From a virus: a stretch of 22,944 nt of DNA. The notes beneath the pieces were generated by a model. That model was not told the origin of the DNA. It saw nothing but the letters and a program-made list of their open reading frames with translations, and made no database searches. The DNA lies in IMG/VR virus record IMGVR_UViG_3300030116_002445, positions 1 to 22,944 of that record. One strand, given 5' to 3'. Of the stretch, positions 5,266-22,923 are shown in pieces. Made by a program: the position numbers and the translations under genes. Every line of letters begins with the position of its first letter. Position 1 is the first letter of the stretch.

Positions 5266-6092
5266 AATATTTTTCCTAAAGTATTTTTAATTACTTCTTT
5301 GTTTTCTTCTCCGATAGCATCTTCACAGTATGTTACTAAATCCATAAGTTCAACATTTGTCAGAAGTTGTTCTGCATTTTCATTGACCGCTTGGATATAT
5401 TTATACCTTCCTTCTAGTGGACAAGCATCGTAGATGTCGAAAACTGTTCCATATTGTTCCATTAATTGTACTGCGCGTTTTGGACCAACACCAGGTACTC
5501 CTGGTACATTGTCCCCTTTATCGCCAGTTAGACATTTGAAAGTAATATAATCTTCAATTTCAAAGTCATAGTGTTCGTCCCAGTTGTGTACTGTTGTTTC
5601 TTTTCTAGTAACTGTACTAAATCTAGACACTTTATCGCTAATAAGTAAATCCCAGTCTTTATCTGACGATATTAACCAACATTCATCATAATCGATATTT
5701 TGTGTTATGTATGCAGCTATGTCATCGGCTTCAACTCCTCTAAAATGAAATACTGGGTACTTTTCTTTTATTAAAGTTAGAGTATCTTGAAACTCTGCCA
5801 TAAACATCTCAAACTCTTTTGCTTCTTGCTCAGTTTGGTCTGCGAATCTTTCTTTTCTGTTTGCCTTGTATTCTGGAAATATCTCTTTTCGATAACTACT
5901 ACCACCATCAGCACATACTATAATTGTACCTGCTTTGTACGACTTGGCTAGACTTTCTATTGTTCGTATGTAGTCATACTTAAAATCTAATATATTTTGG
6001 TGTTTCCATCGAAAAGCTACATTTAGTCCATCAACTATCAGCAAGTTCCCAATCGGAGCTGGGCTCCCAAGGTTTGCAATCGTAGTCGCCAT
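5262..6092 (-). CDS. 5'-3' exonuclease / flap endonuclease (PolA N-terminal type, RNase H-like)
   Basis: A 276-residue structure-specific nuclease expected to remove RNA primers and 5' flaps on the lagging strand. It supplies in trans the 5' nuclease domain missing from the phage polymerase. The acidic metal-binding residues of the family are visible: D21 (IVDGLN), D62 (CADGG), E121/D123/D124 (VEADD), D144 and D146 (SSDKDWD), and D191/D194 (GDKGDN). A helix-hairpin-helix, VPGVPGVGPKRA, spans 197-208. The chosen ATG has AGGAG 12-13 nt upstream and overlaps the preceding nuclease gene by 62 nt. A TTG start at residue 17, just before the first beta strand, is a possible shorter alternative. It overlaps nrdA by 4 nt. 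Confidence 0.9.
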   Translation of the reverse strand: MATTIANLGSPAPIGNLLIVDGLNVAFRWKHQNILDFKYDYIRTIESLAKSYKAGTIIVCADGGSSYRKEIFPEYKANRKERFADQTEQEAKEFEMFMAEFQDTLTLIKEKYPVFHFRGVEADDIAAYITQNIDYDECWLISSDKDWDLLISDKVSRFSTVTRKETTVHNWDEHYDFEIEDYITFKCLTGDKGDNVPGVPGVGPKRAVQLMEQYGTVFDIYDACPLEGRYKYIQAVNENAEQLLTNVELMDLVTYCEDAIGEENKEVIKNTLGKIL

Positions 6093-6522
6093 TTGTAAAT
6101 ACTATCTCCTCTTTTTCGAGCCAGTGTTCTGCGATTAGTATATATGCACCTAGCCACGCAATATGCATATAACGCAATGTATTCTTTGGTTTTCGAACTG
6201 TTACTGCAAAAAACTTTCCGTAGTTTTCTCTAAATATCAGTAACGGCTCTTGTTTCATTTCTTGTGATTGTCTACATAGTTTACTCCACCATTTATAAAG
6301 ATTATTAGTCTTTGAGGTGTATATTTTTGAGTTAAATCCGCTATCCTTGTAGAATTTAACTTCTATGCAAAATAAATTATGTTTACCAGGTACTCTAATA
6401 TCTCCTTTTATTTTTCCACTACCAGAACCTGGTACTTGTTCCCATCTCTCTTCTGTCATTCGACCAAGTAGAGACATAACTTGTTGTTCTCCTCTGTTTC
6501 CTTTTTGTCGTGAGTTAACCAT
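6031..6522 (-). CDS. PD-(D/E)XK nuclease, probable Holliday-junction-resolvase-like endonuclease
   Basis: A 163-residue protein. The first 60 residues show the PD-(D/E)XK core: KGNRGEQQV with Glu12, then PGSGSGKIKGD with Asp41, then CIEVKFY with Glu54 and Lys56. This spacing is typical of Hjc-like resolvases and related phage nucleases that act on branched DNA. The C-terminal half, rich in aromatic residues, is not recognised. The position between a cytochrome cassette and a flap endonuclease, inside a recombination block, fits a role in resolving replication or recombination intermediates, but the exact substrate is inferred. It overlaps the upstream small membrane gene by 8 nt and the exonuclease gene by 62 nt. 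Confidence 0.75.
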   Translation of the reverse strand: MVNSRQKGNRGEQQVMSLLGRMTEERWEQVPGSGSGKIKGDIRVPGKHNLFCIEVKFYKDSGFNSKIYTSKTNNLYKWWSKLCRQSQEMKQEPLLIFRENYGKFFAVTVRKPKNTLRYMHIAWLGAYILIAEHWLEKEEIVFTNGDYDCKPWEPSSDWELADS

Positions 6523-6760
6523 TAAATCCTTTATCTATTAGCCAAAAGGCCATTAACATAGAGCCAAATACAAATACCTGTACAAAAGCCATAAAAGCTA
6601 CTAAGGGTATCTGTATTTTGCCCCACCAATTTAATTCTTTTTCTTGCCACTCGTCCCACTCTTCAGCTGTTGCGTCTTCTGTTTTATTCAACTGCAACTC
6701 CAACTGTTGGGGATAGCGGTTTTCTTTGTAATTTTCTTCTCTTTTCCAAGGGTCTGTCAT
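6515..6760 (-). CDS. Small single-pass membrane protein of unknown function (cytochrome c cassette)
   Basis: An 81-residue protein with a charged N-terminal half rich in Glu, Gln and Trp (1-46), one strong membrane helix (about 50-75, IPLVAFMAFVQVFVFGSMLM) and a short tail. I do not recognise a family. It starts with ATG overlapping the cytochrome c stop (ATGA), so the two are probably translationally coupled. That suggests a role in the same membrane process, for example as an anchor or partner, which is inference only. Confidence 0.7.
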   Translation of the reverse strand: MTDPWKREENYKENRYPQQLELQLNKTEDATAEEWDEWQEKELNWWGKIQIPLVAFMAFVQVFVFGSMLMAFWLIDKGFNG

Positions 6761-7191
6761 TTCATAGTTTCTTCAATAAACTCTGATAATGTTTGTATAT
6801 CATTATCTGATAACATACCTGCTTGTGCCCACATTGTAGAACTCATATTTCCTATGGTTTCCCTATTTTGATAGGCATATAATCTTTGAGATATATACTC
6901 TGCATTTTGTCCTGCTAGTTTAGGAAAAGCACCCATGCCTTGTCCTTCTTGTCCATGACATGCTGCACAACCTGCCCATAATCCTCTTATTGACGAGAAT
7001 GGGTCTGCCGCCGCAGCTTCTGCTTGTTTCGCCATCTGTTCACTAAGCGTACCATGAACTCGTAGATACTCCTCATAACACTCTCCTGTACAAGCATGAG
7101 CCCTAGAATAACCTTTGTATTCTAAATTTTGATAAGTGTATGTTATAAGTGAAAACATCACTACTACTATTGATAAAATGTATAATCTCAT
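6757..7191 (-). CDS. Membrane-anchored c-type cytochrome (class I, single haem)
   Basis: A 144-residue electron-transfer protein. Residues 3-20 form a signal anchor without a clear cleavage site, so the haem domain should face the periplasm. The haem-binding motif C75-A-A-C78-H79 is followed by GQEGQGMGAFPKLAGQ and a C-terminal LSDNDIQTLSEFI helix, the pattern of cytochrome c4/c553-type domains. Met120 is the likely second axial ligand by alignment with that family, with Met116 as an alternative. Two extra cysteines, C34 and C38, lie in the linker (HACTGEC) and could form a disulfide. Covalent haem attachment would need host Ccm proteins. It overlaps the genes on both sides by 4 nt. A phage gene of this kind is rare, and its redox partner is unknown. 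Confidence 0.85.
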   Translation of the reverse strand: MRLYILSIVVVMFSLITYTYQNLEYKGYSRAHACTGECYEEYLRVHGTLSEQMAKQAEAAAADPFSSIRGLWAGCAACHGQEGQGMGAFPKLAGQNAEYISQRLYAYQNRETIGNMSSTMWAQAGMLSDNDIQTLSEFIEETMK

Positions 7192-7589
7192 GCTTCTCTA
7201 TCTATATCCCATCTAACTATGTTCTTGCCTTGTTTTGAAGGTCTGTTTTGCCAGAACTTCCAAGACTCTGCTTGTTGTCTCCATTCTAATAACCATGGAG
7301 CATTTTCTCTTTCCGCATCTTTAAATACGGCATTTGTAAATATAACTGGTATTAAGACTGCAAAGTGTACGAATATACTTGTTACTGTTTTATACCCTAA
7401 CCACCCCATATAATAGGTTGCTAGAAATCCAAAATATACACTCCACATAGTAAATAATACCAATGTAAAATATGCTTGTAAGCTGGGATCGGGAACATAT
7501 TTTAATGGATTATATCTATTATCCATTACTAGTCTCCAACACTCAACTATCCACATAATAACTCTTCTGTGTAATGCTGGTTTATTCAT
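7188..7589 (-). CDS. Two-helix membrane protein of unknown function (cytochrome c cassette)
   Basis: A 133-residue protein. It has a basic, Trp-containing N-terminus (1-36), two predicted membrane helices (about 38-62 and 66-88) and a polar C-terminal tail rich in Trp, Arg and Glu (90-133). Both termini are expected in the cytoplasm if the positive-inside rule holds. No cysteine or histidine pattern indicates a haem site. I do not recognise a family. It is the first gene of a three-gene membrane and cytochrome set, overlapping sbcC by 8 nt and cytochrome c by 4 nt, so a shared task with the cytochrome is plausible but unproven. Confidence 0.7.
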   Translation of the reverse strand: MNKPALHRRVIMWIVECWRLVMDNRYNPLKYVPDPSLQAYFTLVLFTMWSVYFGFLATYYMGWLGYKTVTSIFVHFAVLIPVIFTNAVFKDAERENAPWLLEWRQQAESWKFWQNRPSKQGKNIVRWDIDREA

Positions 7590-9399: not shown

Positions 9400-10318
9400 T
9401 AAATACTCCTATAATTTTTTTAACTTTTGTTTCGTCTAATTCTAATATATACGATAGATATTCTCCTAATTCTTCTTCTATCGTCATCTCTTTGTCCAAT
9501 ATGAGAGTGGCTTCTGTCTTTCTCTTAATTACCTTTTTGTCCAGTAGGTCAGAATTTTTGACCCCGCTCAAGTCTGATACATCACCCTCTACTTCATATA
9601 TAGTGTGGTGCCACTCTGTTTGTACCATTTCTTCTGTACTTGATACTGTTTTTCTTAATAGTTGTGGTAAATCAAATTCATGCCATGTCCAAGACCAATC
9701 ATCATCTATCAATAGATAACCAGTCTTTACTACATTTCTATGAAATGATGTTGTCATAGGACTGCCAGGATATACTATGTTTCGTTGAGTATTCTCGTGA
9801 GCATGTAAATCTCCTGCAAAAACAGTCTTAAATTTATCAAATCTTTCTAAATCTACTTCTGGCGTCACATGAGGTGGTATTTCTCCTCTCACATGAGTAA
9901 ATAGATAATCTACATCATCTATATCTTCTATACTGTTTTTTCTGTGTAAGTCAGCATAGGGTAGAATCGCCCAATCATGAAGATAAAAAGTTTCTGTTAT
10001 AACTTTTACTTTTGGATTGAGTTCTTCTGTTACTCTTTTTAAATTTGTAAAAAATGTTTTGTGCTTTCTTGTAGCTTCATGGTTACCATCAAATATAATA
10101 GTATCCACAGTAACACCTTTTACAAAGTCAAAGTAGAGTGTTAACTCGTCCATAGAAGGGACTCGATCAAACAAGTCCCCACCTATGATATGCAGGTTGA
10201 CATCTTTTTCTAATTCATAAATCTTTTCAAAAAACAATTTATAACGGGTGCAAGCCCATGCGATAGGAACATTCTTTTGTCCTAACTTAATATGCCAATC
10301 TGCAGTAAATAAAATCAT
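9368..10318 (-). CDS. SbcD/Mre11-like nuclease subunit (T4 gp47-like)
   Basis: A 316-residue calcineurin-fold metallophosphoesterase, the nuclease partner of the adjacent SbcC-like ATPase. Metal-binding motifs are D7-W-H9 at the N-terminus, GGD48 (IIGGDLFDR), GNHE at 78-81, and the later AGDLHAHEN segment. Length agrees with T4 gp47 (339). In T4-type phages this pair makes 3' single-stranded ends for recombination-dependent replication and helps degrade host DNA, and the same role is inferred here. The start ATG overlaps the peroxiredoxin stop (ATGA). Confidence 0.92.
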   Translation of the reverse strand: MILFTADWHIKLGQKNVPIAWACTRYKLFFEKIYELEKDVNLHIIGGDLFDRVPSMDELTLYFDFVKGVTVDTIIFDGNHEATRKHKTFFTNLKRVTEELNPKVKVITETFYLHDWAILPYADLHRKNSIEDIDDVDYLFTHVRGEIPPHVTPEVDLERFDKFKTVFAGDLHAHENTQRNIVYPGSPMTTSFHRNVVKTGYLLIDDDWSWTWHEFDLPQLLRKTVSSTEEMVQTEWHHTIYEVEGDVSDLSGVKNSDLLDKKVIKRKTEATLILDKEMTIEEELGEYLSYILELDETKVKKIIGVFSDNSRKANME

Positions 10319-10869
10319 GCTACGAAATCATCTCCTGGATTCCATTCACACCCAGTTAACCCTCCAGCTTTTAATGCTTGTAGAGTTCTTAATATTTCGT
10401 TTGCATTTCTCCCTGTGTTGAGAGCATTAATTGATAAATGCTGTATAACTCCTTCAGGGTCAACTATATAAGTTGCTCTGTAAGGTACTCCTTCATCTTC
10501 GTTAACTATTCCCAGTTCTTCTGCTAACACATTATTACAATCTGCTAGAAGAGGGTGGGTTGTTCCATATAAATCCGTGTGGTCACCTTGTTCACATTTC
10601 CAGTTCCATTTACAATATTCGTTGTCTGGACTTATGCCATAAACTTCATCAGTTTCAGACATTAAGTTATCCATGCCTACTATTTCAGTAGGACAAATAA
10701 ATGTAAAATCTTTTGGATAAAAGTAAATTACTGACCAATCCTTGAGTTGCCAACTTTTCACGGTAATGAAATCGTGGTCTGCGTCAGGCCAATCTTCTTT
10801 GAGATTGCTCTGATTACCACTAACTCCTGTAAGTTCAAACTCAGGAAATTTATCTCCTACACCAATCAT
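10315..10869 (-). CDS. 2-Cys peroxiredoxin, AhpC type
   Basis: A 184-residue thiol peroxidase that reduces H2O2 and organic peroxides. The peroxidatic Cys59 is in FYPKDFTFICPTE, with Thr56 and Pro60 as in the family and the conserved active-site Arg131 in YRATYIVDPEG. A resolving Cys174 is in GCEWNPGD near the C-terminus, as in AhpC proteins. Length is typical (about 185-200). The segment 84-111 differs from common bacterial forms, with extra cysteines C86, C92 and C111. No AhpF or thioredoxin reductase is in the window, so the host must provide electrons. It sits in one transcription unit between the SSB and sbcD genes, with start and stop overlapping by 1-4 nt. A likely role is protecting infected cells or phage enzymes from oxidative damage (inference). 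Confidence 0.92.
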   Translation of the reverse strand: MIGVGDKFPEFELTGVSGNQSNLKEDWPDADHDFITVKSWQLKDWSVIYFYPKDFTFICPTEIVGMDNLMSETDEVYGISPDNEYCKWNWKCEQGDHTDLYGTTHPLLADCNNVLAEELGIVNEDEGVPYRATYIVDPEGVIQHLSINALNTGRNANEILRTLQALKAGGLTGCEWNPGDDFVA

Positions 10870-20316: not shown

Positions 20317-21075
20317 TTAATTTTCCTTAATTAATTGTTTAATGTTATCGTAAATTGTTATACCCATATCTTGGGCTTTATTTGTTTTTGCTGATTCTAT
20401 ACCACTTTCATTTAATAGAATCGTTACTTTACTTGTAAGATTATCTTTTGTCTCGAATCCATGACTTTGTAAAACTTTTTGAGCTGCTGCCTTTGTTGGA
20501 TAGCTCTTTAGTTTACCTGTTATACAAACTACACCTTTCGTATAGCTGACTTCAGATATTCTCTCACAAGAGAAAGAGAAAGGTAAGTCATTGTACTCAT
20601 TTAGATAAAATACTTCATCTAACCAGTTCGTAAGATTCGACGCCGCTTTAGGACCGAGACCACTATCTATACACTTTTCGTAGGTTATCTCTGATATATT
20701 TGAGACCTTCTTGGTCAATTTATTAGATGCGCTCCGCCCTATCAGCGGTATCGAAAAAGCTGGAAGGAGTGTAGTTAAGTCTGCTGATTTAGAGTTTTCT
20801 ATTTCAGCAAACAACTTGACTCCTAACTTTTCCGAACCTAAAAGTTCAACGAGTTCACTTTCTGTGAAAGAGTAAACTTCATGATAGTCTTGTAAGTCTA
20901 ACTTTTCTATTGTAGCCTTACCAAGTCCTTTGATTTTCAAAGTCTTGGCAAAGTGTTCAATTCTCTTTGATGACTTAGCAGGACAGTCTATGTTGCGACA
21001 AAATAATTGATCGTTTACAATATCTAACTCTGAATTACAAGCTGGACAATGTGTCGGTATAATTATTTCTTGCAT
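20317..21075 (-). CDS. ligB: NAD-dependent DNA ligase, C-terminal half (Zn finger, HhH, BRCT)
   Basis: A 252-residue protein matching the C-terminal part of bacterial LigA. The four-cysteine zinc finger is C10, C13, C26, C31 (CPAC ... CRNIDC). Helix-hairpin-helix repeats follow (about 42-150, including IKGLGKATIEKL and SGLGPKAASNL), and a BRCT domain at about 178-250 (GVVCITGKLKSYPTKAAAQ). It has no adenylation domain; this is supplied by a separate gene at 21988-22923. By known LigA structure this half clamps around nicked DNA. The symbol follows the phage T5 precedent of a two-subunit NAD ligase. It has its own consensus promoter and a GAGAG ribosome-binding site, and is followed 1 nt later by the four-repeat protein gene. 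Confidence 0.9.
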   Translation of the reverse strand: MQEIIIPTHCPACNSELDIVNDQLFCRNIDCPAKSSKRIEHFAKTLKIKGLGKATIEKLDLQDYHEVYSFTESELVELLGSEKLGVKLFAEIENSKSADLTTLLPAFSIPLIGRSASNKLTKKVSNISEITYEKCIDSGLGPKAASNLTNWLDEVFYLNEYNDLPFSFSCERISEVSYTKGVVCITGKLKSYPTKAAAQKVLQSHGFETKDNLTSKVTILLNESGIESAKTNKAQDMGITIYDNIKQLIKEN

Positions 21076-21107: not shown

Positions 21108-21136
21108 ATTATACTAAAGATTTAACCATATGTCAA
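21108..21136 (-). promoter_or_regulatory. Consensus sigma-70 promoter upstream of ligase C-terminal half
   Basis: TTGACA (21131-21136), a 17-base spacer and TATAAT (21108-21113) on the - strand match consensus exactly. The stop codon of the upstream GIY-YIG gene (21133-21135) lies inside the -35 box. The spacer shares GGTTAAA with the polymerase promoter, and the bases before -35 (AGTTC) match the promoter at 11898-11926. The ligase start is 32 nt downstream of the -10 box, so this mRNA has a short leader. Confidence 0.9.
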
Positions 21137-21498
21137 GAACTATTTTTTGGGAACTCCCGTAAAATAAGGGAAGAAATTTTGAAACACTCAGTATGCCCTC
21201 CAAATTTTTGTTGAGGTTTATAACTATCATGCTCAAACTTTTTGTGTAATTCCTGCTCTATCTTCCAGCAGTTGTAAATGGTGTCATGATAAGTTCTCTG
21301 GATTCGTAAATCATACCCTTTGAATCCACGACTTCTTTTAATCACATGACGCCAGTCTTTTCCACTAGCAATCCCTACTTTGATACATTCTCTTTCATAT
21401 GTTCTTTGATTTACTAGAATTACTCCATACAAAACACCCTCTCTTTCTTTTTCATGAGGGTGATTATCGAAGTAAGTTTGATTATATACTCCACTCAT
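21133..21498 (-). CDS. GIY-YIG family nuclease (T5orf172/Mug113-like)
   Basis: A 121-residue protein. The domain runs from VLYGVILV (22-29) through IKVGIA (39-44), a conserved Arg50 and E81-x-x-L-H85 to GGHTECF (100-106). This pattern matches the T5orf172/Mug113 branch of the GIY-YIG superfamily, where the glutamate binds the metal. A longer open frame reaches 21639 but would run 144 nt into the preceding gene. The ATG at 21498 overlaps the upstream stop as ATGA and is clearly better. The gene lies between the two halves of the DNA ligase. It may be a repair nuclease or a remnant of a homing endonuclease; activity is inferred. Confidence 0.75.
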   Translation of the reverse strand: MSGVYNQTYFDNHPHEKEREGVLYGVILVNQRTYERECIKVGIASGKDWRHVIKRSRGFKGYDLRIQRTYHDTIYNCWKIEQELHKKFEHDSYKPQQKFGGHTECFKISSLILREFPKNSS

Positions 21499-21797
21499 GC
21501 AATAAGTAGTGGAGTAAAGTGTCTGATTAGACCTGATAAGAGAATAAATACTGCGATTGCATTTAGTATGATTAATGCTCGGTCTTTCCATAAAAGACCA
21601 ACCCATAACCAACCTGAAACACCAATCAAAGATAAACAAAGGTCTATAAAAGGAAATCCTTGTGTTGACCTTACTGCAAAAGCGGCGATAAGAAAACTAC
21701 TTGATATCCATTTTACATACCATGAAAGGTCTTGTTTTGGAGTAGCACTCTTAAATATTCTTTTGCTGTTCTCTATCTCTTTCTTTGAGTATTTCAT
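21495..21797 (-). CDS. Small multi-pass membrane protein (possibly DUF6552-like)
   Basis: A 100-residue protein with a basic N-terminus (1-25) and three hydrophobic segments (about 28-43, 50-69 and 73-91). The phrases WYVKWISSSFLI, SLIGVSGWLWVGLLWKDRALIILNAIAV recall a small family of marine-phage membrane proteins (DUF6552 as I remember it), of unknown role. It overlaps the upstream coiled-coil mini-gene by 47 nt in another frame and the GIY-YIG gene by 4 nt. Confidence 0.7.
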   Translation of the reverse strand: MKYSKKEIENSKRIFKSATPKQDLSWYVKWISSSFLIAAFAVRSTQGFPFIDLCLSLIGVSGWLWVGLLWKDRALIILNAIAVFILLSGLIRHFTPLLIA

Positions 21798-21882: not shown

Positions 21883-21988
21883 TCCATTCTCCTATTTTAT
21901 AAAATACATAAGGTATTACTACTACTGCTACAAAAAACATACTAATAAATGTGAACAGCTCGTAAATATCTGCGAAAGGTTCCATCAT
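21875..21988 (-). CDS. Single-pass membrane mini-protein (37 aa)
   Basis: The frame starts MMEPFADIYELFTFISMFF and ends KIGEWID, with one hydrophobic helix (about 11-31). Its ATG overlaps the ligase-A stop codon by one base (TAATG), a typical coupling arrangement, and its stop overlaps the next start by 8 nt. Family unknown. Small membrane proteins of this size are common in phage early regions and may act on host membrane functions, which is speculative here. Confidence 0.6.
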   Translation of the reverse strand: MMEPFADIYELFTFISMFFVAVVVIPYVFYKIGEWID

Positions 21989-22923
21989 TAGTCTACTCTC
22001 CTTAGCACTTGTGGTATTATCTTTCCTGCTCTTATTACTTCTATCTTACAACCTATCTTTAGGTCAAGAGCTTCAATGATTGATTTATTGTGTAATGTTG
22101 CTTTTGATACCGTTGCTCCTTCTATGTCTATTGGGTCAAAGTGTGCTACAGGAGATACTGCTCCTGATTTACCCACTTGCCAAGATACACTTTGGAGTAT
22201 AGTGACTACACCTTTTTCCTGTTGTTTGAGAGCAAAAGCTCCACGAGGGTGATGACTTGTATATCCGTAGTGGTCAAATTTATTATTATCCGCTATACGA
22301 AATACTGAGCCATCATTAGGAAATTGAGTGTAATCACTATCAATGGCAGTCTGGATTCCGAGATTTGAAACAAACCTCATGTCCGAGACATAGTTATCTG
22401 TTGGGTAAGGAGAGACTCCATGTGCTATAAAATGTAAGTCTCTCGTTTTAAATTCTGTGGAGTCTTTTAAACTAAGAGCTCCTGCTGCATAATTCCTTGA
22501 ATTAGGAATTGTTTTAGGAGCTACTACTTCTCCTGATATTTGTAGCACTCCTTCATAATCTATTGTTTCTGGAACTAGATGTCTAATATTATGTGTTATG
22601 TCTAGTCCTTCTATTCCATCTCCTCGTGTTAAAGATTTTTGAAATTCTCCACCACCATAAAGTATGCTTATTGCTGCACCATCTAACTTTGCTGTGCAAA
22701 CAGTGGCGTCACTGCCCCAATCTGGAGCAGTGTCGATACCACTAACTACTTTCTGGAGGGAAAATAATGGGAACATATGTTTGTATCTTCGTTCATACGA
22801 ACTTTTATATCCGATACTCTCCTCTGTTGCCATATTCACGAGGTAATCGAAAATCTCATCACTCATAATGGGGTTGCCACTATAGTATGCTGTTTTTGCT
22901 CGCTTGATAAGATTTTCTAACAT
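21988..22923 (-). CDS. ligA: NAD-dependent DNA ligase, N-terminal half (Ia, adenylation, OB fold)
   Basis: A 311-residue protein matching the N-terminal part of bacterial LigA. The NMN-binding Ia segment is at about 8-30 (AYYSGNPIMSDEIFDYL), the adenylated lysine is Lys79 in KLDG (79-82), motif TRGDGIEGLDIT is at 99-110, the GEVV motif near 131-134, SRNYAAGAL at 142-150, and the OB fold near 235-311 ends with RAGKIIPQVL. It stops exactly where the zinc finger of LigA would begin. The remaining domains are encoded at 20317-21075. Together the two proteins equal one ligase of about 560 residues. The -10 box of a promoter lies 6 nt before the ATG with no Shine-Dalgarno sequence, predicting a leaderless mRNA. 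Confidence 0.92.
   Translation of the reverse strand: MLENLIKRAKTAYYSGNPIMSDEIFDYLVNMATEESIGYKSSYERRYKHMFPLFSLQKVVSGIDTAPDWGSDATVCTAKLDGAAISILYGGGEFQKSLTRGDGIEGLDITHNIRHLVPETIDYEGVLQISGEVVAPKTIPNSRNYAAGALSLKDSTEFKTRDLHFIAHGVSPYPTDNYVSDMRFVSNLGIQTAIDSDYTQFPNDGSVFRIADNNKFDHYGYTSHHPRGAFALKQQEKGVVTILQSVSWQVGKSGAVSPVAHFDPIDIEGATVSKATLHNKSIIEALDLKIGCKIEVIRAGKIIPQVLRRVD

Follow-up and report, generated by a model that had tools for sequence, protein, structure and literature searches.

Phage-borne cytochrome c and two new membrane protein families in a mobile gene set that likely acts on host terminal respiration

The three genes of a small phage cassette, which encode a cytochrome c with an N-terminal anchor (CYTC) and two small membrane proteins (TM133 and TM81), are likely part of a modular, horizontally exchanged phage gene set acting on the terminal host aerobic respiratory chain. 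We read the set as one that maintains or redirects terminal respiration because every recognizable member works, or carries electrons, at the quinol-to-oxygen end. The stretch of DNA analyzed here (the window) is a 22.9-kb linear IMG/VR virus record of 22,944 nucleotides, and relatives of its cassette genes in other phages share their loci with genes for AOX, DoxX, pseudoazurin, and, rarely, COX1 and COX2. A reading of the window from sequence only had proposed a membrane redox module, and these additional redox genes give that proposal strong and independent support.

All three cassette genes are intact open reading frames with ATG starts on the minus strand. TM133 (7188-7589; 133 aa) comes first and is a two-helix membrane protein, CYTC (6757-7191; 144 aa) is an N-terminally anchored class I cytochrome c, and TM81 (6515-6760; 81 aa) is a one-helix membrane protein whose N-terminal half is hydrophilic. 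The open reading frames match exactly what the sequence-only reading had described, a CAACH cytochrome with an N-terminal anchor between two-helix and one-helix membrane proteins, and its 4-nt overlaps are ATGA junctions at both TM133/CYTC and CYTC/TM81. At its ends, the cassette also shares 8 nt with sbcC and with the resolvase gene, so overlap alone is no mark of a three-gene unit, and it is because of comparative data that we treat TM133, CYTC, and TM81 as a set. Read from right to left on the minus strand, the gene order is SSB, peroxiredoxin, SbcD, SbcC, TM133, CYTC, TM81, PDDEXK resolvase, flap exonuclease, and a class I ribonucleotide reductase pair, which we take to be nrdA/nrdB. Placement in a phage recombination region, also part of the earlier description, is borne out by the adjoining genes for SbcC, SbcD, SSB, a PolA-type polymerase (about 45% identical to T5-like phage polymerases), the PDDEXK resolvase, and the flap exonuclease, which mark a replication and recombination region. 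The peroxiredoxin (AhpC/TSA; 10315-10869; PF00578, E 2.9e-25), which lies between ssb and sbcD, is kept in most loci of the window lineage and is a possible phage defense against oxidative stress; it tracks sbcD and ssb rather than CYTC. The window contig, a fragment, contains the three cassette genes and the peroxiredoxin gene and no open reading frame for AOX, DoxX, or pseudoazurin.

By sequence, CYTC belongs to the c4/c554 type of class I cytochromes c. It matches Pfam Cytochrom_C (PF00034) with an E value of 6.7e-9 and 37.4 bits (cut-off, 21.3), and its best solved relatives are small gammaproteobacterial cytochromes and c4 proteins (Vibrio c554, E 1.9e-14). Foldseek placed the CYTC model (pLDDT 74.5) with c546/556 and c554 at probability 1.00 and E values of only 2e-3 to 8e-3; confidence in the structure models of both CYTC and TM133 is moderate to low. 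From the N terminus, the protein has a signal anchor at residues 1-20 (7132-7191), with its hydrophobic segment at residues 1-19, a cysteine pair, CTGEC (CxGxC), at residues 34-38 (7078-7092), the CAACH heme-binding motif at residues 75-79 (6955-6969), and Met120 (6832-6834), the probable sixth heme ligand, all on the minus strand. Met120 occupies the same sequence position as in c4/c554 proteins (M-x3-A-x2-L) and is invariant in the 36-row CYTC alignment. The heme site, whose loss in close homologues the sequence-only reading had named as evidence against its own proposal, is retained as CxxCH in all 120 distinct full-length homologues examined, as is the CxGxCY motif upstream of the heme domain, and the N terminus is hydrophobic in 118 of the 120. 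Among near relatives, dN/dS is about 0.07-0.13 for CYTC, 0.12-0.18 for TM133, and 0.12-0.20 for TM81, and on such ratios CYTC is under purifying selection as a heme protein. Covalent attachment of heme c and a periplasmic location are predicted from the N-terminal anchor only.

The CxGxC pair of CYTC may form a disulfide or serve as a metal or thiol redox site. A CuA or COX2-type site (CxExCxxxHxxM) was considered for the pair and rejected, as the cysteine spacing of CTGECYEEY fits but the His and Met positions do not. The order nrdB-CYTC-glutaredoxin in T4-like loci hints at ribonucleotide reduction, but such a role was discarded as the main reading, since a periplasmic location is predicted for CYTC and the gene also lies away from nrdAB in loci L004, L042, and L145.

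TM133 and TM81 are two new small conserved membrane families. Hydrophobic segments span residues 39-57 and 71-89 of TM133 and residues 53-71 of TM81. W18, N27-P28-L29, and H75 are invariant among close TM133 members, and a His in the second helix is kept in 25 of 25 aligned members of the wide family. TM133 has no Pfam or PHROG match and no match in fold searches of PDB and BFVD, members of its family alignment have no match below 0.07 against PHROGs, and TM81 has no family match in Pfam or PHROG. Cultured OM43 phage Melnitz and Phage C48C1 each encode a remote TM133 relative, and neither has CYTC. Remote members found beside pseudoazurin match the narrow TM133 profile weakly (E 1e-6 to 1e-16) and were judged by the shared motif. 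Roles for both families are inferred from association only.

An alignment-based search found CYTC relatives in 492 IMG/VR contigs, and TM133 relatives were present in 298 viral contigs of the same database; these redundant counts are of contigs, not distinct viruses. The cassette is widespread rather than absent from relatives, an absence that the sequence-only reading had named as evidence against its proposal, and homologues in hundreds of contigs, purifying selection, and the universally kept heme motif argue that it did not arise by chance. None of 50,697 GenBank phage records encodes CYTC or TM81, and no cultured member has CYTC. Among 84,980 bacterial and archaeal species genomes, CYTC matches occurred in three MAG contigs only, all with the phage gene order nrdA-nrdB-CYTC, and when the phylum to which one of the carrier MAGs belongs was searched for cellular relatives, it gave weak matches to other cytochromes and nothing more. 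CYTC is phage-borne. The three contigs (L082, L083, and L084) are T4-like phage contigs in MAGs labeled Synechococcus, Sphingobacteriales, and Planctomycetaceae, and they are probably binning errors or come from infected cells.

Two phage lineages share the cassette genes, the window type, with SbcCD and a T5-like polymerase, and a T4-like lineage near the SAR11/OM43 phages, with Gp23 on contigs of 129, 135, and 146 kb. Gp23 of the 146-kb contig shares 69.5% identity with its Melnitz counterpart and 67% with that of SAR11 phage HTVC008M. A cyanophage origin was rejected, although one carrier MAG is labeled Synechococcus, as no D1/D2 photosystem genes (PF00124 above the cut-off) were present in the 12 contigs scanned and Gp23 is nearest to OM43/SAR11 phages. 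One contig of the window lineage, L088 (IMGVR_UViG_2823148864_000008), has an IMG number unlike that of a metagenome and could be a single-cell genome that names a host.

At least nine changes of lineage label are needed across a tree of 67 CYTC proteins, and well-supported branches force six of these, a topology indicating that the cassette genes moved between lineages in at least six transfers. Gene order varies across loci (TM133-CYTC-TM81, TM81-TM133-CYTC, CYTC-TM81, and TM81-CYTC), and TM133-CYTC and CYTC-DoxX adjacencies each occur in both lineages. All three T4-like contigs of 129-146 kb carry CYTC and TM133 about 7-15 kb apart, many T4-like loci have CYTC without TM133 nearby, and in most T4-like loci a glutaredoxin gene directly follows CYTC. 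Tight coupling of the three genes had been taken as a sign of one functional unit; recurrent association upholds part of that claim, but the genes are not a fixed trio, their order and spacing vary, and the overlap argument is weak by itself. The question of whether the flanking membrane genes co-occur with the cytochrome elsewhere is answered by their recurrence beside it in two unrelated phage lineages.

Further redox genes near the cassette genes were found by clustering neighbors. AOX scores 224.5 bits against PF01786 (cut-off, 22.7), and its di-iron ligand motifs LET, NERMH, and EEE are invariant in the AOX alignment. In the L007/L092 group, a close relative of the window, AOX is flanked by CYTC and TM81, with an overlap of 4 nt; in one T4-like group, it lies a few genes downstream of CYTC; and in relatives L007 and L366, a small electron carrier shares one phage locus with AOX. 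DoxX is above its Pfam cut-off and lies directly behind CYTC in both lineages. The third neighbor is a secreted cupredoxin with all copper ligands present. Phage copper carriers score best with pseudoazurin rather than plastocyanin, and of three cupredoxins scanned against the NCBIfam pseudoazurin equivalog (TIGR02375), one was above the cut-off (132.7 versus 109.85 bits) and two were just below. AOX occurs in 429 viral contigs, the cupredoxin in 129, and DoxX in 52. Within INPHARED, AOX is found in Phage C48C1 only, and the phage pseudoazurin is absent.

Searches run in reverse, from AOX, DoxX, or pseudoazurin as seeds, return to CYTC, TM133, and TM81. For each gene, the non-redundant (90%) loci found with its own seed were counted, and a further module gene lies at most 1.5 kb away from CYTC in 39 of 51 loci, from pseudoazurin in 25 of 33, from AOX in 11 of 20, from DoxX in 10 of 18, and from TM133 in 15 of 31. 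Random placement in a 140-kb genome would give about 2% per partner, a figure that is our estimate and not a computed null. Some adjacency comes cheap owing to tight operons, and some AOX- or DoxX-bearing contigs have no other module gene within reach.

The strongest single argument for function comes from an exchange of carriers. In L309, L307, L405, L411, and other loci, TM133 and DoxX flank pseudoazurin with no CYTC nearby. Heme-bearing CYTC and copper-bearing pseudoazurin are unrelated in sequence yet occupy the same place beside TM133 and DoxX, which argues for electron transport by CYTC and for joint action of TM133 with the carrier. On the T4-like contig G007, which has TM133, a soluble cytochrome of the same heme type with a signal peptide replaces the anchored one (L191; G007 54664-54927).

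A terminal oxidase is part of the set on G135, a T4-like contig of 134 kb with the gene order COX2-Cox11-COX1-TM133-DoxX-pseudoazurin (about 33989-39500; L434 823-5105; L473-L479). COX2 (PF00116) has the CuA motif CSELCGKNHAYM, Cox11 belongs to PF04442, and COX1 matches PF00115 with 529 bits. The same contig encodes a T4-like endolysin, a gp9/10-like tail fiber protein, an exonuclease, PhoH, ThyX, a CsgG-like protein, and a tmRNA; CsgGF is present in phage Melnitz too (PMC9004378). Bacterial contamination as the source of the COX genes is disfavored by these phage genes and by a second assembly, from another metagenome, that is identical to G135 over COX1. COX1 also occurs on viral contigs L482 (together with COX2 and AOX), L483, L484, and L485, so few that a phage oxidase must be regarded as the exception. 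COX1 matches in INPHARED records of Listeria, Staphylococcus, and the like were left out, as they are probably host DNA in unannotated records. G135 also encodes an aminotransferase that reads like 5-aminolevulinate synthase (5977-7170, minus strand) and a heme oxygenase (PF01126; 50001-50534, plus strand), placing heme synthesis and breakdown genes on a contig with a heme-copper oxidase. Its tmRNA (L474 10208-10594) is permuted, as in alphaproteobacteria, a hint to the host.

Together, these genes suggest that the marine phages behind these hundreds of uncultured contigs keep or re-route host respiration during infection. CYTC would be anchored in the inner membrane with its heme domain in the periplasm, where the host Ccm system would attach heme, and it would accept electrons on the host quinol:cytochrome c side (bc1) and pass them to a c-type terminal oxidase. 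Respiration and ATP supply could thereby persist after shut-off of host gene expression. In other phages, pseudoazurin would perform the step of CYTC, AOX would be added as a direct quinol:O2 outlet, and, rarely, cytochrome c oxidase subunits would be brought by the phage itself. TM133, TM81, and DoxX would act as membrane partners, most likely providing a dock between the carrier and either a respiratory complex or the quinone pool. We advance more tentatively the bolder proposal that phages of marine heterotrophs build a partly phage-made terminal respiratory branch (cytochrome c or pseudoazurin, AOX, and rarely cytochrome c oxidase) in which TM133, TM81, and DoxX are previously unknown electron transfer or docking subunits, and that they control host respiration in this way during infection.

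An unlikely alternative is that the genes act mainly as an overflow valve and redox protection, draining an over-reduced quinone pool to O2 and limiting reactive oxygen species as host metabolism collapses, with energy conservation secondary. AOX conserves no energy, DoxX proteins are tied to redox stress in some bacteria, and the peroxiredoxin of the window lineage and the glutaredoxin of the T4-like loci lie close to CYTC, as this explanation would have it. However, CYTC and pseudoazurin, like COX1/COX2, are components that feed proton-pumping oxidases, the peroxiredoxin follows other genes than CYTC, and the glutaredoxin could be no more than part of the nrdAB neighborhood.

We regard as improbable that the cassette interferes with respiration instead, the phage cytochrome competing with host cytochrome c and throttling respiration, and so setting lysis timing via membrane potential or excluding other phages, with TM133 and TM81 as small Imm-like exclusion proteins. 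Exclusion and lysis control typically involve small membrane proteins, and some phages, including Melnitz, have TM133 without CYTC. Working electron transfer is nevertheless what strict heme-site conservation, repeated pairing with AOX and COX1 with catalytic motifs kept, and replacement of CYTC by a copper carrier all point to, and neither TM133 nor TM81 has a PHROG match to Imm or superinfection exclusion (Sie) families at E 0.1. Least probable, and disfavored, is that these are neutral passengers, host-derived genes co-located in a hypervariable phage site without joint function, or that the contigs are bacterial. Movement between lineages and shuffled order would fit passengers, but the genes are under purifying selection and the same families re-associate in unrelated phages, while the contigs' hallmark phage genes (Gp23, SbcCD, PolA, endolysin, and tail fiber) and the confinement of cellular matches to three MAG contigs with phage-like gene order speak against a bacterial source.

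CYTC resembles the bacterial c4/c554/c552 type (Vibrio c554, 2zzs; Thioalkalivibrio c546/556, 8yts; Pseudomonas c4, 1etp and 8smr) in heme-domain sequence and fold, CxxCH, and the Met ligand, but in front of the heme domain it has, in addition, a transmembrane anchor and some 45 conserved residues that include CxGxCY, and unlike diheme c4 it has a single heme. Cytochromes of the CycM/Paracoccus c552 type have an N-terminal membrane anchor, a periplasmic class I heme domain, and a link between bc1 and aa3; CYTC shares the anchor, the class I domain, and, as proposed, such a link, whereas its heme domain falls in the c4/c554 group. The phage cupredoxins keep the copper ligands of pseudoazurin (TIGR02375) and differ in being phage-borne.

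The phage set may be viewed as a heterotrophic counterpart of the cyanophage plastocyanin-PTOX cassette, in which petE and PTOX are part of a hypothesized mobile gene cassette that likely prevents electrons from backing up (PMC3037559). Like that cassette, relatives of the window contig pair a phage-borne small periplasmic or lumenal carrier with a quinol oxidase of the AOX superfamily, and both sets are sporadic, probably mobile among T4-like marine phages, and proposed to keep electrons flowing in infection. Here, in contrast, an anchored cytochrome c or pseudoazurin serves as carrier, the set also includes DoxX, two new membrane families, and, rarely, COX1/COX2, no D1/D2 genes were found in the 12 contigs scanned, and the T4-like members are closest to phages of OM43 and SAR11. 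Since plastocyanin and the features of a photosynthetic host are not found, we do not count the phage set as a member of the petE-PTOX cassette. The open-access full texts searched describe neither a phage-encoded class I cytochrome c with such partners nor a phage pseudoazurin. Viromes have yielded reads of cbb3 oxidase subunit I (PMC3474794) and matches to coxA, cydA, and petB, the latter with a warning of cellular contamination (PMC3877843).

How phages power replication after host shut-off is an old question that these genes make testable, and the conserved membrane families TM133 and TM81 gain a specific hypothesis. Respiration by SAR11, OM43, and similar bacteria returns much of the carbon fixed in the ocean to CO2. 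If a common phage set targets terminal respiration, infected heterotrophs respire under partial viral control, much as infected cyanobacteria do with photosynthesis. Whether phages use iron-based CYTC or copper-based pseudoazurin as the carrier can also be compared with the availability of metals in the ocean.

Outside the cassette, the window holds several other features. The phage protein encoded at 1092-2243 has a C-terminal part resembling a Hint (hedgehog/intein) autoprocessing domain. An NAD-dependent DNA ligase is divided between two open reading frames (20317-21075 and 21988-22923), with a GIY-YIG (T5orf172) gene between them (21133-21639). A small membrane protein (LSWYVKW...WKDRALI) encoded at 21495-21797 recurs at 16 loci in both lineages and may be another accessory membrane protein.
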